The translations under genes were made by a program, and so were the position numbers. From assembly GCA_014860625.1 (NCBI GenBank), contig JACZJJ010000029.1:1-54346 (forward strand): a DNA stretch of 54,346 nucleotides, read 5' to 3'. The stretch comes from Bacteroidales bacterium (GTDB lineage Bacteria; Bacteroidota; Bacteroidia; Bacteroidales; FEN-979). This document shows positions 1 through 12,229 of this stretch, piece by piece. Position 1 is the stretch's first letter. Each line of letters starts with the position of its first letter. Below the pieces are notes generated by a model. It made no database searches. It was not told the origin of the DNA and saw nothing but the letters and a program-made list of their open reading frames with translations.

Positions 1-1468
1 GAACGGTAATCCTGACATCAAACCCACGTCCCACGAATGCAAGGCCCAGGGCCTCTCCTTCCTTCGCGGCAATCTCCACGCACAAGCCGCACCGGATGCA
101 CTTTTCGGGTTCATAGACAACCATCTCATGCTGCAGGTTACGGGTCAGCAGATTCCGTTCAGCCGGAGCAAATCTCCGCCGGTTGGCGTCATATTCATCC
201 GCATAGATCCTCAGTTTGCAGCTTACCGGCTTCCGGCAGTCGCAATGCATGCAACGTTGCGCTTCACGGATGGCCTCTTCCCGGTTTAATCCAGCCAGAT
301 ATCCATCTGCTGGATCAATTCTTCCAGTTGGTGAAGCCTCTTGCATATACTCTTTCTTCTCTTCCTCCTTCAATGTGCCGAAGGCCGAGTTGAACATAGG
401 TTTACGCCGCCTGTCGGGATTCCCGTTCAGGTAAGCATCGGTTTCAAGGGCCGCCTTTTTCCCCTGGGCGGCCGACCGCACGGCAAGCAGCTGTTCCGAG
501 ATGATACTTCCACAGCCAAACACGCCTGCAATACCGGAAATGAAACTCTTCCTGTCAATGACCGAGCCCGTATCCAGTATAGGCAGGTTAAACTCGCCGA
601 TGGGATTTTCTTCCCGGAATCCGGTAGCCAGGATCACGGCATCAAAAACGGGGAGGATCTCCTTTTCCCACACCTTTCCCGAGACCGGATAATTCAATTT
701 AAACTCTCCGCCAAGTGTGTGGATCGATTCAATATCGGCATCAAGCATCTCTTTTGGCAGCAGGTCGTCGGGGATGCTGTAGCGCAGCGCTCCTCCTGCC
801 TTCTCCCGCTTATCAAAAAGCGTACAGGCATGGCCCATTCTCAGCGTATAGAATGCGGCAGACAGTCCGGCCGGACCGGTGCCAATCACCGCCACCCGTT
901 TCCCGCTTTTCTGAAGAGGCTGCCCGAGACCTCTCTTGCGAACGGTTTCATCCATGGCGGTATAACGCTTCAACAAACAAACCGATACCGGCTGGTCGAT
1001 GCTTTTCCTTCGGCAAGCCTTTTCGCATGGAGCCGGACAGATATACCCGAGTACCAGCGGCAGGGCGATCTCCTCCCTCACAACCCGCAGGGCCTCTTCC
1101 TCCTTATCCTCAGCGATGAGCCGGTTCATCAACGGAATGTTCATGAAGGCAGGACAGGATAGCCGGCAGGGGGCTTCGCAGTCGCCCACATGATCGCTGA
1201 GCAGCAGCTCCAGCGCCTCTTTCCGTGCCTCCATCACCTCTTCGGAGGATGCCGACAGGTGCATTCCCTCTGCGACAGGCATCGCACAGGAGGGGAACAT
1301 GCTGTTCTTATCCAGATCCTTGACCAGGCATATCATACACGACGGGTGGTTGTGGTGGCCCGGCAGGTAGCACATCGAAGGGATGCGAATGCCTGCCTGT
1401 TCGGCAGCCTGCATAACGGTCATGCCCTCCGGCACATCCATGGCAATATGGTCAATGGTAATCTTCAT
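1..1468 (-). CDS. NuoG-like/GltD-like iron-sulfur flavoprotein oxidoreductase (partial, C-terminus beyond window)
   Basis: The frame is open from an ATG at 1468 to the window edge (489 codons, no stop). Seen: an N-terminal plant-type [2Fe-2S] domain (Cys33, 44, 47, 61) as in NuoG and hydrogenase subunits; a GltD-type Fe-S adapter (Cys97, 101, 105, 144, 148, 152); an FAD-binding Rossmann motif GTGPAG at 196-201; a Cys-rich stretch (406-417); and the start of another cluster with Cys457, 460 and 463. No hydrogenase H-cluster motif is seen in the visible part. The family oxidises NAD(P)H through FAD or passes electrons between Fe-S clusters and a partner NuoEF module. The start lies 1 nt after the stop of the NuoEF fusion, so translation is probably coupled. 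Cytosolic by absence of a signal. Likely the third subunit of a NAD(P)H-linked complex; its physiological substrate cannot be told from this window. Confidence 0.88.
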   Translation of the reverse strand, partial: MKITIDHIAMDVPEGMTVMQAAEQAGIRIPSMCYLPGHHNHPSCMICLVKDLDKNSMFPSCAMPVAEGMHLSASSEEVMEARKEALELLLSDHVGDCEAPCRLSCPAFMNIPLMNRLIAEDKEEEALRVVREEIALPLVLGYICPAPCEKACRRKSIDQPVSVCLLKRYTAMDETVRKRGLGQPLQKSGKRVAVIGTGPAGLSAAFYTLRMGHACTLFDKREKAGGALRYSIPDDLLPKEMLDADIESIHTLGGEFKLNYPVSGKVWEKEILPVFDAVILATGFREENPIGEFNLPILDTGSVIDRKSFISGIAGVFGCGSIISEQLLAVRSAAQGKKAALETDAYLNGNPDRRRKPMFNSAFGTLKEEEKKEYMQEASPTGRIDPADGYLAGLNREEAIREAQRCMHCDCRKPVSCKLRIYADEYDANRRRFAPAERNLLTRNLQHEMVVYEPEKCIRCGLCVEIAAKEGEALGLAFVGRGFDVRITV

Positions 1469-1469
1469 T

Positions 1470-3827
1470 TTATGTAACCAAAATGGCATCTTCGGGACAT
1501 ACCTGACGACAGATATCACACTTGATGCATTTTTCCTGGTCTATCTCATGTATTTCAAACGGTTTGTATTCAATGGCTCCCGACGGGCATCGCTGGGCAC
1601 ATTTGGTGCAGCCAATGCATGTATCCTTAACGGTATACGTGATCAGCGGTGTGCACTTTCCGGCTGGACACCTTCCCTCCAGATGTGCTTCGTACTCCTC
1701 CCTGAAATAGACCAGGGTGGAGAGAACAGGGTTGGGGGCAGATTTTCCCAAACCACACAAACTCCCCTGCTTGATTGATCCCGCGAGATGCTCAAGTGTA
1801 TGGAGATCTTCCGGAACTCCTTTGCCATTGCGGATCTTCTCCAGCAACTCCAGCATCCTCCGCGTGCCGACCCGGCAAAAGGTACATCTTCCGCACGACT
1901 GACTTTGGGTGAAAGAGAGAAAATAATAAGCGATATCCACCATGCAATCGGTTTCATCGAGCACCACCAAACCGCCCGACCCCATCATCGATCCCACCTC
2001 CATCAACCCTTCAAAATCGACCGTCAGTTGGGCCAGTGATGCCGGAATGCACCCACCGGAGGGACCCCCAATCTGAACCGCTTTAAAAGCCTTTCCGCCA
2101 GCTATTCCACCACCTATCTCCTCTACAATTCTCTGGATGCTCATGCCCATTGGAACTTCGATCAGTCCGCCCCGGTTTACCTTTCCGGCGAGAGCGAAGA
2201 CTTTGGTTCCCCTGCTGCCGTTGATGCCGATCCGGGCAAAGGCATCGGCTCCGTGCCGGATGATCCAGGAGATGAATGCAAAGGTCTCTGTATTGTTTAC
2301 CAGAGTGGGGTTCCCGTTTAGACCGCTTTTGGCAGGATAGGGTGGGCGGATCCTTGGCAGTCCTCGGTTTCCCTCCACCGAGGCGATGAGAGCGGTCTCT
2401 TCACCGCAGACAAATGCGCCCGCCCCTTCAAAAATCCGGATGTGAAAGGAGAACCTACTCCCCAAAATATTCTCTCCCAGAATGCCTTCTTCCCTGCATT
2501 TTTCGAGTGCTTCGTTCACCCTGCTGACAGCCAGCGGGTATTCGGCCCGGATGTAGAAGATCCCTTCCGTCGCCCCGGTAGCGAATCCGGCGATGATCAT
2601 TCCTTCGATAACCCGGTAAGGATACGACTCGAGGATCATCCGGTCCATAAAGGCTCCCGGGTCGCCTTCATCGCCATTGCAGATCACTGTTTTATCGGGT
2701 GCTGCCTGATCGTGTACCAGCTGCCATTTTTTCCCGGTTGGAAATCCGGCACCGCCACGTCCCCGTAACCCACTTTCGGAGATGGCATCGATCACCTGCT
2801 GCGGTGTAAACGCTTTCAAACAGTTCGAAAGAGCTTCAAACCCGCCGGATCGCTTGTACTCTTCCAGGTCGGTCGGTCGCACAACACCCCGGTTCTCGGT
2901 CGCAATATTCATCTGGGGATCAAGAAATTCGGAGACGGGAGTGTCGCGCTCTTCTGCCTGGTAATGCCTTACCGATAACGGAGCTCCGTCGCGGAGGATC
3001 TGTTCAAAGAGAGAGACGACATCGGTACGCATGCGGTTGAAAAAACCCGTTGGCCTGAAGTGACTCAGTACCACCTCTTTGACCTCTTCCGGTTTGATCT
3101 TGGCGTAATAGGATGACGGTTCGCCGGGCTTGACGATCTCCAGCACCGGTACCTGGTGACAAATCCCGACGCAGCCTACCTGTTTCACATCCACCAGGAT
3201 ATGAGCGTCGGCCAGGGTTTGTTCCAGGGCAGCTTTCACGTCGGAACTACCGCTGGCAATGCAGCAGGATCCCAGTCCGATCCGGATCTCTCCCAGGCCA
3301 TTGGGACCGATGCTTTCAATCGTTTTACCGGCATCCGGGGATGTTGCTTTATGGAGGAGAAAATCCCTAAGGATCTCCCCGGCTTTCTCGGGGGCTACCT
3401 GTCCGTAGGTCACCGAATCGATCCGGATAACCGGCGCGATGGTGCAGCAGCCCAGGCAGGCGACTTTTTCGATGGTAAAGAGGCCTTCCCTGTCGGTATC
3501 TTCCAGCCCTTTCAGCTTCAGCTCCCGGCAAAAGGCATCGTAGACCTGGAGAGCCCCTTTCACATGGCACGCGGTTCCCGTACAAATTTTTATGCTGTGT
3601 TTTCCGGCCGGCCGATGCCTGAACTGACCATAAAAGGTAGAGATGCCGGTAATGCGCGAAGGGGTGATGGCAGTAGTGGCACAAACCCGCTCAAGCGCTT
3701 CATCCGGGAGGTAGTGAAACTCCTCCTGAATGGCCTGCAGGATAGGGATGACGGCTTCCACGGTTTTACCCCGGCCGGCTACAATCCGATCAACAATTTC
3801 TATTATATTTCCTTTATTCTCCGGCAT
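1470..3827 (-). CDS. Fused NuoE-NuoF NAD(P)H dehydrogenase subunit with extra thioredoxin-like and ferredoxin domains
   Basis: 785 aa. Domain order: NuoE/24-kDa thioredoxin-like [2Fe-2S] domain (about 1-160; Cys82, 87, 124, 128); a second thioredoxin-like [2Fe-2S] domain (about 180-260; Cys188 region, Cys219, 223) like the N-terminus of HydB/HndC; NuoF FMN/NADH core with GRGGAGFPTGKKW at 356-368; SLBB-like region; a [4Fe-4S] site CGRCTFC (645-651) plus Cys691; and a C-terminal 2x[4Fe-4S] ferredoxin (737-785). By family it binds NAD(P)H, FMN and Fe-S clusters in soluble hydrogenases, formate dehydrogenases and BamGH-type complexes. The NuoE-NuoF fusion is a variant of what are usually separate HydC/HydB genes. 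It is followed 1 nt later by the NuoG/GltD-like gene and is preceded by a 119-nt gap holding a palindromic repeat. The electron partner is inferred, not seen. Confidence 0.93.
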   Translation of the reverse strand: MPENKGNIIEIVDRIVAGRGKTVEAVIPILQAIQEEFHYLPDEALERVCATTAITPSRITGISTFYGQFRHRPAGKHSIKICTGTACHVKGALQVYDAFCRELKLKGLEDTDREGLFTIEKVACLGCCTIAPVIRIDSVTYGQVAPEKAGEILRDFLLHKATSPDAGKTIESIGPNGLGEIRIGLGSCCIASGSSDVKAALEQTLADAHILVDVKQVGCVGICHQVPVLEIVKPGEPSSYYAKIKPEEVKEVVLSHFRPTGFFNRMRTDVVSLFEQILRDGAPLSVRHYQAEERDTPVSEFLDPQMNIATENRGVVRPTDLEEYKRSGGFEALSNCLKAFTPQQVIDAISESGLRGRGGAGFPTGKKWQLVHDQAAPDKTVICNGDEGDPGAFMDRMILESYPYRVIEGMIIAGFATGATEGIFYIRAEYPLAVSRVNEALEKCREEGILGENILGSRFSFHIRIFEGAGAFVCGEETALIASVEGNRGLPRIRPPYPAKSGLNGNPTLVNNTETFAFISWIIRHGADAFARIGINGSRGTKVFALAGKVNRGGLIEVPMGMSIQRIVEEIGGGIAGGKAFKAVQIGGPSGGCIPASLAQLTVDFEGLMEVGSMMGSGGLVVLDETDCMVDIAYYFLSFTQSQSCGRCTFCRVGTRRMLELLEKIRNGKGVPEDLHTLEHLAGSIKQGSLCGLGKSAPNPVLSTLVYFREEYEAHLEGRCPAGKCTPLITYTVKDTCIGCTKCAQRCPSGAIEYKPFEIHEIDQEKCIKCDICRQVCPEDAILVT

Positions 3828-3946: not shown

Positions 3947-5875
3947 CTACTTTCCAATGCAGTACAAGTTTTGATCACCTCTGATATAGATCCTTCCGTT
4001 AGAAAACGCCGGAGTGCAAACCGATCCTTCTCCCAGAGCTGGTTCTCCAATCGAAGCGAATACCTTGTCTGCTTTGAATATATGCATAACGCCAGCTTTA
4101 TCCATCAGGTATATCCTGTCATCAACCAGCACCGGTGATGCATAGGTGTTGTCATCCAGCTCCCTGACCCAGTACTCCTCTCCTGTCTTGGCATCATAAC
4201 AAACAATTGCGCCGTAGCTTGTAACCAGGAAAAGGTATTTGTCATTGGCAACGGGACTGGGAATATCAGACATGTAATCCGTTGTTTCCCATGATACTTG
4301 TGGAGGTGAGCCCAGTTTTATCGCAACTGTTTTGGCATACTCGTTGGTGGCAAATACCATTCCGTTGGCATAAGCCACTGAGGGTCCTACCTCACCGAAA
4401 ATGCAATCCAGTTTCCAACGTTCTTTGCCCGTTGCCGGATCATATGATGCCACACAGGGATCGGCAGCGAGGATCAACTCCATCCGGTTCCCGGTATTCA
4501 CCAGGACGGGTGATGCCCATGAGACCCTGACATTGCGGGGAGTGTTCCATACCAAATCGCCCGTGGCACCGTCAAAAGCCTTGACGCTGGCTCCTTTCGA
4601 CTGGTCCCACTGGACAATCAGCAGATTGCGGTACATGATGAGGGACGAGGAGTGCCCGTAATGATTCTGCGGAATTCCCAGATTTTTCGACCATACGATT
4701 TTTCCTGTCATGTCGAGCGCCACCAGGTCGCCCGTAGCAAAGATGGCGTAAACCCGCTGGCCGTCGGTCGTCATGGTGGGTGCTGCAAGCCCTGTCTCCC
4801 TGTCAACCTTTGGTGCCGTGGCCGGTGTACCCGGAACAGCGGAAACATCCGTAAGCCAGACAAATTCTCCCGTATCGGCATTGAAACAGTAAACTTCCCG
4901 TTTGGTAGCACTCGCCCCGGAGAGGAAAACCCTGTTTTTCCATACGATGGGTGAATTGTAGCCGGGAAGCCTGAGCTGGGCTTTCCATTTGATGTTGGCT
5001 CCAGTGGCTCCATTCCAGCTTACCGGAAAATTCTTCCCATATGCCACACCATTCCCATCCGGGCCTCTGAATGTGATCGCGTTGCCGGTAACCTCCTGCC
5101 TGGATGGGTATTGCTGAGCAGAAATTGCTGCGGAGGAGGAGGATGCAGGTTGATGGTCGCCTGACGGTGTTCCGGTTCCACTGATTGTTGTATGATCCGT
5201 TGTGACATCCGGTATTGTTCCATCCGAATCTGACGGATTACCAGCATACTGGGACTGATCGGGTGCTTGTTGATCAGATTGTGACAGATTCGTCTCCTGA
5301 TCCATGGCAGGGTTTATTGCAGAAGAATCGACTGCCAGTACGGATGAGGCAGCTTGACCCTGAAGTGTTTTTCCGATTTCCTTGTAGGTCAGGAATGCCA
5401 GGACGAGCGATCCTGTCACCAAAAATATTCCGGTATAGATGACCCATCGCTGGTTGATCTTTCGCAACTCCCAGAAATTCTCTTTGACCTCTTCGGGGAG
5501 TGGTGGGATTTTCGGCTGGATCATTTCGGTCCATTTCATGCAAATGATCACAACCAGCAGGCATACCAGTAGAATGTACCCGCCTGTCCGGATCTGCCAT
5601 TGGCTGGTGAAAAAAGCTTTCCGGGAGAGGAGATCGAGTTCGCGTATCTCGGTACGAAGTGCGTCATCCCCCGGGTTGCTCTTAAGCCGTTCCAGCATGA
5701 CGGACATGGCCGGTGTGTTGAGCGGATCAACACGCTTCACCTGGATATAATTGGCAATGATCAGGATGCAGAGGATAAAGGCCACAACTCCACTGATGAC
5801 AGCGATCTTTCTCAGCAGCTGGATGGTTTGTTCCGTTGATTTCGTCTCTTTCATAATGTTATCTGTTCCTGTCAT
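3947..5875 (-). CDS. Membrane-anchored PQQ-like (BamB-fold) beta-propeller protein with three N-terminal helices
   Basis: 642 aa. Three hydrophobic segments lie near 23-45, 97-115 and 143-163, followed by a Ser/Gln/Asp-rich linker (about 170-255) and a C-terminal domain (about 270-642) of repeated W/V-rich blades such as YCFNADTGEFVW, VVALDMTGKIVW and ASYDPATGKERW. These are PQQ-like blades, structurally eight-bladed propellers. I see no clear PQQ-enzyme active-site signature, so the fold is likely a scaffold or binding module rather than a quinoprotein dehydrogenase. The start ATG overlaps the stop of the NapH-like gene (ATGA), showing translational coupling. The unusual three-helix anchor and the place between a NapH-like protein and NuoEF suggest a structural part of a membrane complex; this is inference. 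Confidence 0.88.
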   Translation of the reverse strand: MTGTDNIMKETKSTEQTIQLLRKIAVISGVVAFILCILIIANYIQVKRVDPLNTPAMSVMLERLKSNPGDDALRTEIRELDLLSRKAFFTSQWQIRTGGYILLVCLLVVIICMKWTEMIQPKIPPLPEEVKENFWELRKINQRWVIYTGIFLVTGSLVLAFLTYKEIGKTLQGQAASSVLAVDSSAINPAMDQETNLSQSDQQAPDQSQYAGNPSDSDGTIPDVTTDHTTISGTGTPSGDHQPASSSSAAISAQQYPSRQEVTGNAITFRGPDGNGVAYGKNFPVSWNGATGANIKWKAQLRLPGYNSPIVWKNRVFLSGASATKREVYCFNADTGEFVWLTDVSAVPGTPATAPKVDRETGLAAPTMTTDGQRVYAIFATGDLVALDMTGKIVWSKNLGIPQNHYGHSSSLIMYRNLLIVQWDQSKGASVKAFDGATGDLVWNTPRNVRVSWASPVLVNTGNRMELILAADPCVASYDPATGKERWKLDCIFGEVGPSVAYANGMVFATNEYAKTVAIKLGSPPQVSWETTDYMSDIPSPVANDKYLFLVTSYGAIVCYDAKTGEEYWVRELDDNTYASPVLVDDRIYLMDKAGVMHIFKADKVFASIGEPALGEGSVCTPAFSNGRIYIRGDQNLYCIGK

Positions 5876-7182
5876 GATTTAATCGGGCAGTAATCCATGC
5901 AGCGGACGCAGCTGAAACATGTACCCCTGTTCGGTTCAAAATCGGTTCGGTACCGTGTCATCAGGCGTCCGGCCAGCAAGCCCCCGATTGTCAATCCGAT
6001 AAACCCTCCAACAATCCATCCGCCGATATAAAACTCCCTGATGATCTCTGCTGCCTCTGCATAAAGTTCGGAAGCCGGCTTCCCGGATGCCTTGAAGGCG
6101 GTCATCTCGATCGTTTCAGGTTGGCTGGCATCTTTTTCGGGATGCAACAACTCATTTGCCATCCATACCTTGCCGTTAACCAGAGCCAGCGACTCGTGCA
6201 GCTGTGAACCTGTCCAGCCCCCCAGCAGCATGAAAAACGGCATCAGAAGAATGGCCAGAATGAATTTCTTCAGGGTGGTTTGCCTGCTATCCGGATTTTT
6301 TACCGTGACCGGTTTTTCGATGCACTCGTAGGGGCATGAGTCCTCACATAGCCTGCACTGGATGCAAACCGATGGAGTGATCGTCATGTGATGCCTGGAA
6401 AAACGACTGATCCAGTTCAGCAGGACACCATAGGGACAGAGGAATCTACAGTATGGACGGGCGATGAAAATTCCGGAAAGGAGCAACACTCCGGCAAACA
6501 GAAACATGCCGAAGGTCGCGTCGAAACGAAAGATGCCCACAAAAGGGTCGTACCGGCAGATGATAAAGTCGGTCTTTGTTGCCGCATACAACACAGCCAG
6601 GGCCAGATATATATAAGGAATGACGCCAAGGACAGCATTCAGTTGCGGGCCGATTTTTTGCGGACGCCAGGAGATCAGGTCCTGGAAAGCTCCGAAAGGA
6701 CATACTCCCGCACAGAAAGTTCTGCCAAATGCCAGAGTGAAGACCAGCGGGGCCATGAAAAAAGCGAGAACTGTCCAGGGAATGATGTAAGATCCGGAGG
6801 AGAGAGCCAGGGTTACATTCTGGATGGCCCCGATCGAACAAACACACCCTTCCCGGTAAAAACCGAAATAGGCCAATGAAAAAACGGATATCCAGAAGAC
6901 CAGGTTTCGGGAGCGCCGTTTCAGCACTGCCCAGGTGACTAACGACAATGCCATCAGCAGGACAGCAACATCCATCACCTCGAGGATTTCAGCCCGTGGA
7001 GTGGGAAGCAGCGTTTCAGGTGTGATATATCCCGATTCAAATTCGGGCTTTGGAAAGCGTTGGATCGCATAGGTAGAGGCCATTTGCCATGCAAACAGGA
7101 GGGTCAGAACCGCTAGTGCTATGCCTTTTTTCACCGGCTTTCGTTTTCTATGTGATGTCCGGTTTTTCTTTCCCAAATCCAT
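5872..7182 (-). CDS. NapH/NosR-type polytopic membrane polyferredoxin
   Basis: About 436 aa from ATG 7182; an upstream in-frame start at 7257 lies far inside the ferredoxin gene and is less likely. Several membrane helices alternate with Fe-S motifs: FCAGVCPFGAFQDL and CRFLCPYG (the CxxxCP pair typical of NapH), CIQCRLCEDSCP (a [4Fe-4S] ferredoxin motif), and a C-terminal CFSCVRCMDYCP. NapH-family proteins pass electrons between the quinone pool and periplasmic ferredoxins or reductases. A region between the ferredoxin motifs (about 270-400) carries extra hydrophobic segments, giving a second membrane domain before the last cluster. It overlaps both neighbours by a few bases, the upstream Tat ferredoxin and the downstream PQQ-like protein. 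Likely quinone/ferredoxin hub of the cluster. Confidence 0.9.
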   Translation of the reverse strand: MDLGKKNRTSHRKRKPVKKGIALAVLTLLFAWQMASTYAIQRFPKPEFESGYITPETLLPTPRAEILEVMDVAVLLMALSLVTWAVLKRRSRNLVFWISVFSLAYFGFYREGCVCSIGAIQNVTLALSSGSYIIPWTVLAFFMAPLVFTLAFGRTFCAGVCPFGAFQDLISWRPQKIGPQLNAVLGVIPYIYLALAVLYAATKTDFIICRYDPFVGIFRFDATFGMFLFAGVLLLSGIFIARPYCRFLCPYGVLLNWISRFSRHHMTITPSVCIQCRLCEDSCPYECIEKPVTVKNPDSRQTTLKKFILAILLMPFFMLLGGWTGSQLHESLALVNGKVWMANELLHPEKDASQPETIEMTAFKASGKPASELYAEAAEIIREFYIGGWIVGGFIGLTIGGLLAGRLMTRYRTDFEPNRGTCFSCVRCMDYCPIKS

Positions 7183-7735
7183 TGAGCAGATAGGGTTTGT
7201 CTGCCGGAACCCTCGAGTAGGCATCCGACGGACAGTTACGTGCAATAGCACATTCATTGCAGTTGTCGCAAAGGTTTTGCCTCACCTGAAGCTGAAGTGA
7301 ACCATTTCCGAAGGCATCACATCCTTTCACGCATTTCCCGCAGCCAATGCACAGATCTTCCTCAATGGTATACTGAAAAAACGGGTCTTCAATGAAGGTG
7401 CGTTTGATCGCTTTCGTAGGACAAAGCTGGTGTTCGGCGGCTGTATCCAGTATTTTAGTCTCCGGCAGGAAGTAGCCTCCGCAGAGGTCGCAATAGCCGC
7501 ACATGGCATACACATGAACGCATTTAACGGCCGAGGGAGATTTCACACAGCTGTTGGCACACCTGCCGCATTGGGTGCATTTGGAAGGGTCGAGCTGCCA
7601 TACAAACTCATCTCCTCCCGCTTTCGTGGCAACGAGCGTGGCGATACCGCCCAGTCCGACAGCAATGGAAATTTGTACCCCATTCCTGATGAATGTACGC
7701 CGGCCGACCGTTTTATCTTTTCCGCCCTCGTGCAT
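7148..7735 (-). CDS. Tat-exported polyferredoxin (NapG/DmsB-like)
   Basis: About 195 aa from ATG 7735, which begins 1 nt after the upstream stop; the longer ORF from 7816 would overlap that gene and push the signal away from the N-terminus. It has a twin-arginine signal (GRRTFIRNGVQIS, then a hydrophobic Ala/Gly-rich stretch) followed by Fe-S motifs CTQCGRCANSC, CGYCDLC, CIGCGKCVKGC and CDNCNECAIARNC with a following CP, enough ligands for about four [4Fe-4S] clusters. Tat export implies the clusters are inserted in the cytoplasm and the folded protein is moved to the periplasmic face, where NapG-like proteins pair with NapH-like ones. It directly precedes the NapH-like gene, so a NapGH-type pair is a sound inference. 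The terminal acceptor is not visible here. Confidence 0.9.
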   Translation of the reverse strand: MHEGGKDKTVGRRTFIRNGVQISIAVGLGGIATLVATKAGGDEFVWQLDPSKCTQCGRCANSCVKSPSAVKCVHVYAMCGYCDLCGGYFLPETKILDTAAEHQLCPTKAIKRTFIEDPFFQYTIEEDLCIGCGKCVKGCDAFGNGSLQLQVRQNLCDNCNECAIARNCPSDAYSRVPADKPYLLNGFGKEKPDIT

Positions 7736-7736
7736 A

Positions 7737-7991
7737 TTACTTGCTTGCCCCTTTCTTTGATTCATATTCCCGATACGATTTGGCAGCCGGAAGTCCGCAT
7801 TGCTCTGTTTTCCCACAAAGGGTGCATGTAAAATCCAGGGAACAACTCTCTTCTGTCTCCTCTTTCAAAATGAGATATCCGCCAGTAACAGCCAGTCCGG
7901 CTCCGATCAGCCCCTGCATAAGGGTGGTAAGGAACCTTCGCCTGGGAAGCCTCTTCCCCATCTCCTGATTACCTGTTTCCATCGCTTTCAT
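7737..7991 (-). CDS. Small Tat-signal protein with a C-x5-C-x2-C-x5-C motif
   Basis: About 84 aa from ATG 7991, overlapping the end of the NHL-protein gene; other ATGs at 7982 and 7961 are possible, the last preceded by a purine-rich AGGAG. It holds a twin-arginine motif (LPRRRFLTTL) and one hydrophobic segment ending GGYLIL, then a short tail with four cysteines spaced C-x5-C-x2-C-x5-C and the sequence GKTEQCGLP. I do not recognise the family. The four-Cys tail could hold an Fe-S cluster or a metal ion. A Tat signal in so small a protein suggests cofactor binding before export, or escort by a partner, perhaps the adjacent Tat ferredoxin that begins 1 nt after its stop. It could stay anchored by its uncleaved helix. 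Confidence 0.75.
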   Translation of the reverse strand: MKAMETGNQEMGKRLPRRRFLTTLMQGLIGAGLAVTGGYLILKEETEESCSLDFTCTLCGKTEQCGLPAAKSYREYESKKGASK

Positions 7992-8955
7992 CTTCTTTAT
8001 GAACAAATATTCTCACCTGGCTTCTCCATGGATCCAGCAAGATGATCCGGCCGTTTGGATCTAATGCCAGATCCATCCCGCGGGTTCCTTCGTCAAACTG
8101 GTTGGGTGCGGCTACCAGGCAGCTGAATTCCCCTGATGGCAGATAGACCTTCACACGTTCTATTCCCTTTTCGCTGGTTACAAATGAGCCATCGGAGAGG
8201 ATAACAAAATGAGATGGGTTGCAGCATCCGCAGAAGCCCTCCACTTCCATGGATGGTTGCCCCCATGTAGAGATCAGGGTACCGTCGGGACGGAAAGCCT
8301 CAAACAGGTGGCGGCCTGAATTCACCACCCATAACTCACCATCACGGCCCAATCCCAGGTCAAAGTACGGACTGGGAATCACGAATCCGGGGATGCCTGC
8401 AAGGGAATCCTTTTCACCGATCCGGTTAATCAGTTCGCCTTTCATGTTAAAACGGTAGACGATTTTTTCTCCGGCATCAGCAATAAACACATCGGTTCCA
8501 TCTGTAGCCACACTGGTTAAGATAGATTTTTCACTCACCGGTTTCCACCGGTTAATAATCTCCCCCTGAGGACTCATAAATTCAAGATGGTCCTCCATGC
8601 CCAACAGGATTGTTCCATCCGGAGAGATCGTTATGCAGTATGCGGTATCCTGGAAAGGGAATGTTGAGAGCAGTTCGCCTTCCGGAGAAAAAACCTCCAC
8701 GATATCGGCCCCTGTTACATAGATCCGGCCGGCCGGATCGGTGGCAATCCCATAAACTTCAGATAATCCGATTGAGAACTGCTGGACTTCATTATAGTGA
8801 ATGAGGGCGGAATCACTCTTTCGAAGTTCTGCCAAACCATAATCGTAGGGATTGGTACTTCGATCACTTTCGGAAAAGAAGAGATCATATACCATGTAGC
8901 CGATCACTGCCAGAAGCAGGACAAGCGAGGCAATCAGAATCATTCGTTGTTTCAT
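7969..8955 (-). CDS. Membrane-anchored NHL/6-bladed beta-propeller protein
   Basis: 328 aa. A single N-terminal helix (about 5-27, uncleaved-looking, followed by an acidic spacer) anchors a domain of repeats such as GIATDPAGRIYVTGADIVEVF, SPDGTILLGM, GRDGELWVVN and LDPNGRIILLD, typical of NHL or SMP-30-like propellers. A motif GFCGCCNPSHF near residue 245 contributes three cysteines (C-x1-C-C), rare in such propellers. The family binds proteins or ligands or acts as hydrolase/lyase; no catalytic set is evident. Gap to the upstream PQQ-like gene is 15 nt and the downstream Tat gene overlaps its end, so it belongs to the same operon. It probably sits on the periplasmic side as part of the same assembly as the PQQ-like propellers (inference). 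Confidence 0.85.
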   Translation of the reverse strand: MKQRMILIASLVLLLAVIGYMVYDLFFSESDRSTNPYDYGLAELRKSDSALIHYNEVQQFSIGLSEVYGIATDPAGRIYVTGADIVEVFSPEGELLSTFPFQDTAYCITISPDGTILLGMEDHLEFMSPQGEIINRWKPVSEKSILTSVATDGTDVFIADAGEKIVYRFNMKGELINRIGEKDSLAGIPGFVIPSPYFDLGLGRDGELWVVNSGRHLFEAFRPDGTLISTWGQPSMEVEGFCGCCNPSHFVILSDGSFVTSEKGIERVKVYLPSGEFSCLVAAPNQFDEGTRGMDLALDPNGRIILLDPWRSQVRIFVHKEDESDGNR

Positions 8956-8970
8956 GGTCGGGTTGTTATA

Positions 8971-10401
8971 CTATTTTCTGATGTCAATACAAACCAATTG
9001 TTTCGAATCCCGCATCAGCAGGTATCCCCCTGTAATTGCAATCGGGCCCCAGGAGTCCTGTCCTTCGATAATTTGTTTCCGGTCAAGCACCGTGAACTTA
9101 CTGGTCGACAGTTTCGCAATGGTCAGCTCACCATCATCATTCAGGATGAAGAATTTTCCGTCGGCTATGATGTACGGGCCCAGGCCAAACCGATCCGTCT
9201 TCCCGCTTCGCATCACCACTTTTTGGCAGTCATCCGGATGAAACGAGACAAATTCATTTCGCAATCCCCCACCATCTTTCGGCATGATAGCCAGGAGATA
9301 ACCCTTGTAATAAATGGGTGTCTGCTGTTCGGATGCCAGTCCTTCGGCTGGCTTATATTTCTGGACGATCTCAGCTGAAAATTTGCCCTGCTGCTCTTTC
9401 ACCTGCATCACTAATCCCCCATACCCGTAGCCGGCCGTGAGAAATATCCTTCCTTTGTCGAGGATCACGGGCGAAGGAGCTACTACCGAAGGTGAAAACT
9501 CCAGGTTCTCCCAGAGGATCTCTCCCCGGTCATCGCCTTCGGCCGAAATTCCGCATACGCCTCCAATGGCAGGGTAGATATACATCTTCTTCCCCTTGAA
9601 CGTCATCGGCATCACTGAAGCATGAGACATCTTCCATCCGTTTGGATTGGCTGTTTCCCAGGCAATTGTCCCTGTTTTACAATCCACTCCAATCATCAGG
9701 GAGGATCCTCCAACGGCAATGATTGCGGTGTGGTCAACAATCAGCGGACACTGGCCGGTATACCAGAACGGAACCTCCACGCCATACTCTTTTTCAAGGT
9801 CGATCCCCCATAGCAGGTCACCGGTCAGTCTGTCCACGCACATCACCTGACAGCGGGGTCCGATGGTAACAACATAATTTTCGGTAACCGACGGAACCGT
9901 TCGGGAGAGCCCGTGGTTTCTCTTCAGGTGCACGTTGTACGAACGGCGCCAGAGTTCTTTACCGGTCTTGAGTGAGAGGCAGCGAAGAACATCCCTTTTC
10001 TGTGTTTCGTTGTAATCCAGCAGATAGAGTTTCCCATCGTAAACTGCCGGGGCAGCGTGACCCTCTCCAAGTTCCAGGGTCCACAAAATCTTAGGTTCTG
10101 AATCTCCCCACGAATCAATTAATGGAATCCGTTCCTTGCTGATGTTATCCAGATCGGCTCCCCGGAAACGTGGCCAGCGTGTACCCGGTATAGGTTCGGC
10201 CGTTCCGGTGTATTCAAAGAACTCCCCGATGTTGATCACCTCAGTTACCTTGTCTTTGTCAGTACGGTTATCCATCCCGGGAACGGCCAGGGTAACGGAC
10301 TCCACCGGATTGTACAATAGCCACCACAGAAGTATTCCGGCAGCCACCACGACAAACACAAAAGGAAAATATTTTATCAGGTGTTTTTTCGCTACTGTCA
10401 C
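8971..10401 (-). CDS. Membrane-anchored PQQ-like beta-propeller protein
   Basis: 476 aa, with a GTG start at 10401 (no suitable ATG nearby). A helix at about 10-29 anchors a periplasmic domain of PQQ-like blades: WRGADLDNISKERIPL at the N-terminal side, then LYLLDYNE, GDLLWGIDLEKEYGVEVPFW, IGVDCKTGTIAWETANP and LVCIDIRK. It resembles the following PQQ-like protein in the WxRFRGxDxDN and GEGHAAPAV/GDGHASAVV patterns, so the two are probably duplicates. No N-terminal lipobox is seen. It lies 23 nt after the 10425-11645 gene and 15 nt before the NHL gene, in the same operon. Role inferred as structural or electron-transfer-associated; no haem or quinone site can be shown. Confidence 0.87.
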   Translation of the reverse strand: MTVAKKHLIKYFPFVFVVVAAGILLWWLLYNPVESVTLAVPGMDNRTDKDKVTEVINIGEFFEYTGTAEPIPGTRWPRFRGADLDNISKERIPLIDSWGDSEPKILWTLELGEGHAAPAVYDGKLYLLDYNETQKRDVLRCLSLKTGKELWRRSYNVHLKRNHGLSRTVPSVTENYVVTIGPRCQVMCVDRLTGDLLWGIDLEKEYGVEVPFWYTGQCPLIVDHTAIIAVGGSSLMIGVDCKTGTIAWETANPNGWKMSHASVMPMTFKGKKMYIYPAIGGVCGISAEGDDRGEILWENLEFSPSVVAPSPVILDKGRIFLTAGYGYGGLVMQVKEQQGKFSAEIVQKYKPAEGLASEQQTPIYYKGYLLAIMPKDGGGLRNEFVSFHPDDCQKVVMRSGKTDRFGLGPYIIADGKFFILNDDGELTIAKLSTSKFTVLDRKQIIEGQDSWGPIAITGGYLLMRDSKQLVCIDIRK

Positions 10402-10424
10402 ATCACAAAGATAATGGCTTTTGG

Positions 10425-11645
10425 TTAGTCCTCAGCGACATCATACGCCATCAGGGCGTCACCGTGACGGATGTAAAGGATTCCGTCAACAATTGCGGGA
10501 TGAGCCCAATGCTGGGCTTCGCCATAAGGAATCTCAAACGAACTTATTTTTGTGAATCCGTCTGAAGTGGGTTTTACCAGTGCCAATTCGCCCACGTCGC
10601 TGTAACAATAGAGCATTCCATCGGCCCAGATGGTGGTACCTCTTCCCATCATTTTTTCTCCGTGGATGTCATCTCCTGTATTCCAGTCGACACAATACCA
10701 CCCCTTATTCGAATCATCTGATCCGTAAATTTTATCGCCAAGAACGACAAAACCACCCATCCGGTTATCGATCGAAGTGTTTCGCCACATCTCCTGTTTG
10801 GCTGAACCATCGGCGGCCAGTTTTAGTTGTACACCTCCTTGTCCGTATCCTGAAACACAATAGAGATACCCATCCTGAAAATAGGGTGTGTTGGCATGTA
10901 CTGACCATTTATTGGGTTGGGGATGCGACCAGAGCAATTTTCCATTTTCCGTATCAATACCGAGGATCGAGTTGGCTGTTTGTGTCACCAAAAGGGTTCG
11001 TTTAGGAAGTTTAACCAGCAGGGGTGAGCAGTAGGCACTGACCTCTCCCAAACCGGCACAGGACCAGATCAGTTTTCCGGTATTTCGGTTAAGTGCGATG
11101 ACATTGTTCTCTTTCCCTCCGGGTGTACAGAAAAGGACATCCCCATCAATGAGCAGGTTCTCAGTTACACCCCATTTGTTGTTAACCCCGTCATAATCCG
11201 TGAAAATATCGATCTCCCAAAGTTTTTTTCCATCATTGGCATCCATACAGAAAAGCTTCCCGAAAGCGCTCATCATATATAACTTTCCTTCCACAAACAG
11301 TGGTGTAGCGCGTGTTCCCGGCCAACTCTCCACCCAATCGGGTCCGTAAGGCACTTTCCAGAGAAGTTTTCCATCTGGAGAAAAACAAAGAATATAGCCA
11401 ACGTCTCCTGTCGTGCCGGCTGTATATATTTTATCCTTGGTCACAACGGCAGAGGCATGACCGTCACCGAGACCGTCAGCGTGCCAGAGAAGTGTGGGTC
11501 CCGAATCAGGCCAGGATGTCATCAAACCGGTCGACGGGTATTTTCCATCACGGTCAGGGCCGCGCCATTGTACGATTTCCTGAGAGATGACAAGATTGCC
11601 TAGAATCAAGAAAACTCCGAAAATTGATACGAACTTTTTTACCAT
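10425..11645 (-). CDS. Secreted PQQ-like beta-propeller protein
   Basis: About 406 aa from ATG 11645. A longer frame to 11702 exists but overlaps the ICMT-like gene, and the signal peptide (MVKKFVSIFGVFLILGNLVIS, cleavage near SQ-EI) begins only at this ATG. The mature part starts QWRGPDRDGKYPSTG and contains blades GYILCFSPDGKLLWKV, LFCMDANDGKKLWEI, VIALNRNTGKLIW, ILGIDTENGKLLW and the ending LMAYDVAED. This pattern is common in periplasmic PQQ-like proteins of Planctomycetes and Bacteroidota that lack a known enzyme activity. It is the only one of the three propellers with a cleavable-type signal, so it is likely free in the periplasm or bound to its anchored paralogue encoded next. Confidence 0.88.
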   Translation of the reverse strand: MVKKFVSIFGVFLILGNLVISQEIVQWRGPDRDGKYPSTGLMTSWPDSGPTLLWHADGLGDGHASAVVTKDKIYTAGTTGDVGYILCFSPDGKLLWKVPYGPDWVESWPGTRATPLFVEGKLYMMSAFGKLFCMDANDGKKLWEIDIFTDYDGVNNKWGVTENLLIDGDVLFCTPGGKENNVIALNRNTGKLIWSCAGLGEVSAYCSPLLVKLPKRTLLVTQTANSILGIDTENGKLLWSHPQPNKWSVHANTPYFQDGYLYCVSGYGQGGVQLKLAADGSAKQEMWRNTSIDNRMGGFVVLGDKIYGSDDSNKGWYCVDWNTGDDIHGEKMMGRGTTIWADGMLYCYSDVGELALVKPTSDGFTKISSFEIPYGEAQHWAHPAIVDGILYIRHGDALMAYDVAED

Positions 11646-11662
11646 TGTGTTCTGTTTTAATG

Positions 11663-12229
11663 TTAAATGAAACGCTTGACTTTGTTTTTGTATTCTATCC
11701 AATCGGCCCCAAACCGCTTTTCAAGAAATTGTTCCTCTCCCAGGATTAATATAACGTGTACTCCAATACAATAGAGAGAGATCAAGATATTTGGAAGTAG
11801 TGGAAAAAAAATCGCCGAGGCTGTATTAACAAGAAACAGACCCATGTAAAGCGGATTTCTGGTAAAACGGAACAGCCCGTTTGTAATAAGACGTGTTTTT
11901 TCCTCCGGTAATCCATATTTCAGGGATTCATTCAGGGTAAAGAAAGAAAGGAGAAGAATCACGGAGCCGGCAGTTAATATTCCTGTTCCCAGCCATGCCA
12001 TCCAACCGGGGATTTGCACACCACCGAAGGAAGGCATCAGGGCTTTGCAGAGAAGGAGTCCGATGCTCGCAAAAATGGCAAGTTTCCCTGAATAAAAAAG
12101 GAATGGATTTGCAGATGGCTTGCCAACCAGACTTCCCCCTTTAAGCACTATCCGAAGAAAAGCGATGATCATGCCAATCCCCAGGAATGTTAGTACAGCA
12201 ACAACGATTATGTTTGGAAGAGGGATCAT
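11663..12229 (-). CDS. ICMT/PEMT-like integral membrane methyltransferase family protein
   Basis: About 188 aa from ATG 12229; the frame extends to 12289 but this would overlap the beta-barrel gene. Four to five hydrophobic segments, then the family signature NGLFRFTRNPLYMGLFL and a C-terminal EEQFLEKRFGADWIEYK, matching the isoprenylcysteine carboxyl methyltransferase/phospholipid N-methyltransferase fold (cofactor-binding R-x-P-x-Y-x-G and the downstream Glu-Glu). Known members methylate prenylcysteine carboxyls, phosphatidylethanolamine or other lipids in the membrane using S-adenosylmethionine. The substrate here is unknown. It sits 10 nt after the beta-barrel gene and 17 nt before a PQQ-like gene, so it is cotranscribed with the redox genes; whether it serves them, for example by modifying a quinone or lipid, is speculation. 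Confidence 0.85.
   Translation of the reverse strand: MIPLPNIIVVAVLTFLGIGMIIAFLRIVLKGGSLVGKPSANPFLFYSGKLAIFASIGLLLCKALMPSFGGVQIPGWMAWLGTGILTAGSVILLLSFFTLNESLKYGLPEEKTRLITNGLFRFTRNPLYMGLFLVNTASAIFFPLLPNILISLYCIGVHVILILGEEQFLEKRFGADWIEYKNKVKRFI

Follow-up and report, generated by a model that had tools for sequence, protein, structure and literature searches.

A small, unnamed four-cysteine protein as a predicted partner module of a NapG-like ferredoxin in Bacteroidales

A stretch of 54,346 nucleotides from a Bacteroidales bacterium (contig JACZJJ010000029.1 of assembly GCA_014860625.1), hereafter the window, was examined in the present study with a focus on one small protein, here called the tiny protein, which is encoded on the minus strand next to a NapG-like ferredoxin. 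An original prediction, made from the DNA alone, had described an 84-residue protein with RRRF, one helix and four regularly spaced cysteines, whose stop codon lies one base before the start of a ferredoxin with a twin-arginine translocation (Tat) signal and about four [4Fe-4S] sites. These features were confirmed. The tiny stop codon occupies positions 7739-7737 and the ATG of the NapG-like gene begins at 7735, leaving a gap of one base; the NapG-like protein carries an RRTF signal of its own, and its core contains 17 Cys, forming four [4Fe-4S]-type sets plus one. The description of the tiny protein as ending in the four cysteines was right on their spacing and needs a small qualification on their position, as 19 residues follow the last of them (GLPAAKSYRE and a short tail). 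The features concerned are the following:

7737..7991, minus strand: tiny four-Cys protein, 84 aa, stop codon included in the coordinates
7866..7943, minus strand: RRRF twin-arginine signal anchor and hydrophobic helix, tiny-protein residues 17-42 (sequence, conservation, AlphaFold2 (AF2) helix)
7797..7844, minus strand: C-x5-C-x2-C-x5-C module, Cys 50, 56, 59 and 65 (sequence)
7148..7735, minus strand: NapG-like Tat ferredoxin, 195 aa, four [4Fe-4S]-type Cys sets (sequence, alignment)

The tiny protein begins its recognisable part with R17-R18-R19-F20, followed by an uncharged stretch (residues ~21-42) and the four Cys at 5-2-5 spacing. Read from its first ATG, the open reading frame (ORF) shares 23 bases with the upstream NHL gene, which ends at 7969. 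Counting all six stop-free frames, the window holds the exact Cys pattern a single time, against a chance level of 0.065 matches per window in 200 order-2 Markov random windows, none of which had RRxF within 50 residues upstream of the pattern. No significant match was found in Pfam, NCBIfam or, by sequence, the PDB, where the window protein was compared with Pfam and NCBIfam, 105 relatives with Pfam, and the family profile with PDB sequences; the earlier remark that the protein has no named family holds for these three collections. A promoter scan added nothing (16 sites versus 12.8 expected).

The tiny gene is present in 32 of the 43 genomes of the window's family (search at E ≤ 0.01), with RRxF and the exact 5-2-5 spacing in all 32; 30 of these copies were taken as loci from the family search and two, from genomes G024 and G011, were read in loci L054 and L055. 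The upstream NHL gene occurs in 35 family genomes, and all 32 tiny-bearing genomes are among those 35 (Fisher p ~1e-6). The tiny gene is under purifying selection: the ratio of nonsynonymous to synonymous rates (dN/dS) was 0.05, 0.09 and 0.25 in the three computable pairs, four more pairs had saturated synonymous sites (proportion of differences pS 0.75-0.82, with pN 0.10-0.21), and one near-identical pair had zero synonymous changes.

Across the order, 33 of 295 genomes had a match to a tiny-protein profile, but several of the weaker ones lie in NapG's own signal region rather than in the tiny protein. A scan of genome contigs with a NapG profile provided a wider set, of which the best 80 of 371 confirmed loci are referred to here as named loci; the rows are not independent, some named loci being the same contigs as family loci (e.g. 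L095 and L003). The tiny protein stands upstream of, or is fused to, the ferredoxin in 74 of the 78 assessable named loci, comprising 68 recovered with the first pattern, two on a second look (L173 and L123) and four divergent copies (L101, L141, L144 and L149). The gene was not found in the remaining four (L102, L116, L138 and L145). Two loci were excluded as not assessable, as their contigs end too close to the gene: L156 begins in the apparent tail of a tiny gene, and none lies within the 583 bases available in L111. By record title, the named loci are mostly Bacteroidota metagenome-assembled genomes and isolates, including cultured Marinifilum, Labilibaculum, Ancylomarina, Sunxiuqinia, Gaoshiqia and Perlabentimonas, together with bins from KSB1, Hydrogenedentes, Kiritimatiellales, Phycisphaerae and Chlorobiota, some perhaps through misbinning. 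The NapG profile found only the window's own match at E ≤ 1e-25 over 395 genomes of the phylum, which is weak evidence of absence because at most ten candidates were scored per genome.

These distributions bear on the possibility, raised in the original prediction in case no conserved four-Cys homologue stood beside NapGH-like genes, that the tiny gene is a decayed fragment or a chance ORF. Its small size and simple anchor composition would suit that explanation; the opposite was found, however, and conservation, purifying selection, synteny, the natural fusions described below and the random-window test rule it out for practical purposes, leaving it a vanishingly small probability.

In 13 of the 30 family loci the tiny module forms the N-terminus of the NapG-like ORF, and NapG's own RR signal is then absent. 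The fused frames measure 219-232 residues between stops in ten of these and are longer in L011, L012 and L025; 19 distinct fused sequences were gathered over all loci. In the 17 split family loci, RR is present on both the tiny and the NapG proteins without exception. Because the module is fused to NapG, whose own signal is then missing, it should share NapG's side of the membrane. The earlier argument that so small a protein seldom needs Tat unless it folds with a cofactor or rides with a partner is thus strongly supported in its second half, by conserved synteny and natural ferredoxin fusions. On sequence evidence, we identify the tiny four-Cys protein as an unnamed, conserved partner module of the NapG-like ferredoxin. 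The NapG tree, which has few alignment columns, required four changes for the fusion state, and a single origin was not rejected (approximately unbiased test, p 0.059); the fused L025 retains a linker resembling the tail of split relatives, which hints at a second fusion event.

The same loci provide the evidence on whether the tiny protein is instead a targeting adaptor, that is, a Tat signal and anchor for NapG in the manner of a hitchhiker carrier, with the Cys serving as a docking knot. In fused loci the ferredoxin has no signal besides the tiny RR anchor, and L051-L053 retain a tiny-like anchor without the Cys module, as an adaptor would allow. NapG nevertheless has its own RR signal in 17/17 split family loci, and the Cys core is kept across lineages while RR erodes, where a pure carrier predicts the opposite; we consider a mere adaptor improbable. 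In genomes G012, G028 and G034 the ferredoxin retains a tiny-like anchor (matched by the tiny profile at E 1.4e-5 in G034) with the Cys segment gone, so the module can be dispensed with.

Two further observations concern the ferredoxin gene. Open frames, real as such, run through tiny, NapG and NapH (L038, 9129-11039; L039, 6686-8599; L047, 9744-11690; frames of this kind in genomes G003, G007 and G014), and each keeps a signal-peptide-like stretch before NapH. Because of this stretch an internal start is likely, and a triple fusion including NapH was not accepted; otherwise, such frames would encode a Tat-first, Sec-later membrane protein. Of 11 rows that lack the tiny module, four (L051, L052, L053 and L088) have CGYCNLCSG in NapG in place of CGYCDLCGG, a reading seen in none of 111 others; coevolution with the module was not accepted on this ground, because three of these four belong to a single family and have the same anchor layout.

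The 105 sequences on which residue conservation was assessed were collected with a pattern requiring an Arg, four Cys at 3-5/2/5-6 spacing and F, I or A; of 89 motif matches, three that fell on the minus strand by chance were removed before assembly. Invariance of the Cys and of the first Arg (105/105) is by construction, because the pattern demanded both, whereas the exact spacing and the second Arg were free. The tiny protein has Tat-type anchor features. The window copy combines RRRF, a hydrophobic core (21-42) and K43 directly after it, and TatC is encoded in the genome. Among the 105 sequences, the second position of the pair is R in 94, K in 9, S in one and L in one, F follows in 103, and 104 have an uncharged helix core and 104 a positive charge (K/R) after the helix. 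These properties fit the low hydrophobicity and positive tail described for Tat helices (PMC5449189), and from them we infer export of the tiny protein by Tat. The original argument from Tat is weaker than it looked, as the second Arg is replaced in 11/105 and one divergent copy (L101; Perlabentimonas) is without RR; L141 has RQ in its place.

The exact 5-2-5 Cys spacing was found in 104 of the 105 sequences, and the C-x2-C-x5-C triad is the most stable part of the module. The L101 copy keeps this triad and lacks the first Cys, which is displaced in L144 and L149 (x8) and in the Kiritimatiellales copies L136 and L162 (x3 and x7), the last Cys spacing also being longer in the latter two. The same CX5CX2CX5C spacing is found in Escherichia coli RseC, where the conserved core is the CX2CX5C triad and the first Cys is not conserved (PMC11729352). 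The 70-residue N-terminal domain of RseC was reconstituted in vitro with a 420-nm, O2-sensitive cluster read as [4Fe-4S], and its setting is Rsx/Rnf electron transfer (PMC11729352). The tiny protein shares with RseC this spacing, a small size, the membrane and an electron-transfer setting. It differs in architecture: RseC has a cytoplasmic Cys domain followed by two transmembrane helices (PMC11729352), whereas the tiny protein has a single anchor helix first, Tat features and a Cys module on the NapG side. The RseC_MucC profile PF04246 matched none of the 105 members at E ≤ 0.1, and alignment with one RseC sequence placed the C-x2-C-x5-C triads in register at a probability of only 7.7%. At most, the tiny protein may work like an RseC knot by analogy, and the common spacing suggests either repeated emergence of such a knot in membrane redox systems or a very ancient origin.

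A structural zinc knuckle, in which the four Cys bind Zn and stiffen the link between anchor helix and NapG with no redox role, would also account for a compact four-Cys motif. Among PDB sequences, ribosomal protein L44 comes closest to the family profile (E 0.057, non-significant), and one of the 105 members weakly matches Pfam Zn_ribbon_6 (E 0.0023). Both matches are non-significant for the size of the search, a match of a single member to NADH-G_4Fe-4S_3 is as weak (E 0.047), the neighbours are iron-sulfur proteins and RseC, whose Cys are spaced identically, can bind Fe-S in vitro (PMC11729352); a zinc knuckle is accordingly a minority possibility in our estimate, if one to be kept in mind.

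PF12669, the FeoB-associated Cys-rich membrane protein family, is by its name also small-protein-like in being Cys-rich and membrane-bound, and its layout is a helix plus Cys. Weak matches to it in 10/105 members (best E 0.012, not significant) probably reflect this shared layout, and no feo gene is present among the ten window genes scanned. In a 65-residue AF2 model of the tiny family, residues 7-33 form a helix, with a predicted local distance difference test score (pLDDT) of 91 and 88 for the blocks within residues 11-30 and of ~50 outside the helix. A model of the fused tiny-NapG protein had a pLDDT of 54.5; a check of the alignment showed all 74 standalone tiny rows displaced by MAFFT.

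The tiny and NapG-like genes belong to a row on the minus strand with the order PQQa, PQQb, NHL, tiny, NapG-like, NapH-like, PQQc, NuoEF, GltD-like, where PQQ refers to pyrroloquinoline quinone-type propellers. The neighbours are the following:

10425..11702, minus strand: PQQ_2/BamB-like propeller (PQQa), start uncertain, 1-4 copies in relatives
8971..10401, minus strand: PQQ_2/BamB-like propeller (PQQb) (library match, synteny)
7969..8955, minus strand: NHL beta-propeller with N-terminal hydrophobic stretch and GCCNP vicinal Cys pair (library match, alignment)
5872..7182, minus strand: NapH-like polytopic ferredoxin-type membrane protein, start uncertain, longest ORF from 7257
3947..5875, minus strand: propeller protein with N-terminal hydrophobic region (PQQc) (library match, synteny)
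1470..3827, minus strand: NuoE-NuoF fusion with C-terminal 2[4Fe-4S] domain, HydB/StnB-like (library and PDB sequence matches)
2..1519, minus strand: GltD-like NAD(P)H oxidoreductase, truncated at the contig end, with an N-terminal [2Fe-2S]-type domain and a likeness to the N-terminal part of StnC

In the best 80 of 371 loci, contig ends included, the neighbours are retained as NapG 79, NapH 77, NHL 76, PQQc 73, PQQb 70, PQQa 65, NuoEF 59 and GltD 52. The NapH-like protein, in which 15 Cys are each kept by 76 or more of the 77 aligned rows, falls below the cut-off of the NapH/MauN family TIGR02163 (47.2 versus 213.05 bits), as the NapG-like protein does for NF007012 (19.2 versus 269 bits) and TIGR00397 (14.0 versus 178.85 bits). 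Among the best PDB matches of NuoEF are NfnB, StnB and HydB chains, and among those of the GltD-like protein NfnA, StnC and related chains; PDB entry 8OH5 is StnABC (PMC10482914). By sequence, the pair appears to consist of a HydB/StnB-type NuoF that carries 2[4Fe-4S] at its C-terminus and a GltD partner of the StnC type.

Three BamB/PQQ_2-type propeller genes lie in one operon (window 3947-11702), with up to four tandem PQQa copies in relatives. The best PqqE match in the genome scored 108.1 bits against a cut-off of 381.35, in a search without positive control, and all 14 control genomes likewise gave weak matches, none past the cut-off. With every PqqE candidate below the cut-off, these PQQ-like propellers may hold no PQQ; uptake of PQQ is also possible.

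The GCCNP Cys pair of the NHL propeller (residues 244-245, window 8221-8226) is invariant in 76/76 aligned rows and is a possible metal or disulfide site. It raises a further alternative, a periplasmic thiol-disulfide element in which redox-active Cys of the tiny protein exchange with this pair. The invariance of the pair, the overlap of the tiny and NHL genes in the window and the loss of RR in some copies, which would be harmless for a Sec-inserted thiol protein, are in keeping with it. The rigid spacing, the three-Cys copy and the polyferredoxin fusion better suit a metal site, however, and nine loci (L051-L053, L088, L089 and L091-L094) have a CCNP NHL frame without the tiny module, so that we judge thiol exchange unlikely.

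The reading we prefer, with moderate confidence, is that the tiny protein is a membrane-anchored accessory Fe-S module of the NapG-like polyferredoxin in a NapGH-like electron-transfer complex. The observations that support it are conservation, synteny, natural fusion, the conserved Cys core and the Tat-type anchor features; a cofactor on the tiny protein is plausible, and the protein is probably a small electron-relay piece. As proposed, the RRxF helix would act as Tat signal and anchor, and the 16-residue four-Cys knot would hold one extra Fe-S cluster, probably [4Fe-4S], sitting with the NapG clusters. Electrons would pass by way of this cluster between the NapH/NapG relay and the periplasmic NHL and other propellers, and the cytoplasmic HydB/StnB-like NAD(P)H module would feed the relay, the least sure of these steps. 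More tentatively, and with considerable doubt, the operon may encode an undescribed transmembrane complex leading from the HydB/StnB-like module through NapH/NapG and a new kind of mini-ferredoxin to the NHL Cys pair, which might replace or complement Rnf.

Several points weigh against the accessory-module reading. Whole operons are without the tiny gene (L088, L089 and L091-L094), and in L051-L053 NapG keeps the anchor without the Cys module. Because RR is not universal, it is uncertain for some lineages whether a cluster loaded in the cytoplasm is exported through the Tat signal of the tiny protein itself, and the erosion of RR there speaks against such export being strictly required. Homology to RseC is unsupported: with an RseC profile of 27 copies from the order, selected for C-x2-C-x5-C and all showing the triad, hhalign gave a probability of 0.8%, and 19 of 200 column-shuffled decoys scored as high. 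The pLDDT of the Cys module is ~50-60 in both AF2 models and uninformative on structure. Replacement of Rnf as a general role is at most suggestive, and not significant, in the family, where rnfC passes its cut-off in 1 of 35 operon-bearing and 2 of 8 other genomes (p 0.08), and fails at order level because RseC occurs in 240 of 295 sampled genomes, including 16 of the 22 that encode the tiny protein, the window genome excluded.

Comparison with known systems places the operon near several of them. As in NapG/NapH, MauM/MauN and NosR, a four-set Tat ferredoxin is accompanied by a NapH-type polytopic protein that carries Cx3CP and ferredoxin motifs; unlike NapG/NapH, the scores are far below cut-offs, there are an extra tiny module and propeller partners, and no molybdenum reductase is present among the ten window genes scanned. 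The MLMS-1 dual Sec-Tat polyferredoxin (PMC5449189) is a natural fusion of NapG-type and NapH-type parts that begins with NapH and has the Tat helix as its fifth transmembrane segment, whereas the frames described here begin with the Tat anchor and Cys module. With the bifurcating Stn and Bfu enzymes (PMC10482914, PMC9304861) the likeness lies in the downstream NuoEF and GltD-like proteins; unlike those enzymes, NuoE is fused to NuoF and the genes lie within a NapGH-like membrane operon. The GltD-like proteins measure 517-571 residues in complete frames of relatives versus 1172 for StnC (PMC10482914), the NuoG-like half being missing by length. PMC9304861 contains no occurrence of PQQ, NapH or GltD, and a 'NapH' hit in PMC6797604 refers to strain NaphS2, not to the protein.

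The tiny protein represents a small-protein family that has no name but a clear partner, and it draws attention to an electron-transfer operon widespread among anaerobic Bacteroidota, some of them in culture. The operon appears to be uncharacterised, no paper listed in searches of open-licence PMC papers being recognised as naming it or the tiny protein. Four Labilibaculum strains reduce Fe(III), and one of them also Mn(IV) (PMC5760507); these strains are not among the loci here, and a link of this metal reduction to the operon is only a guess. Within the window's family, rnfC passes its cut-off in 3 of 43 genomes and RseC was found in 1 of 21, and the family seems to have largely lost Rnf.

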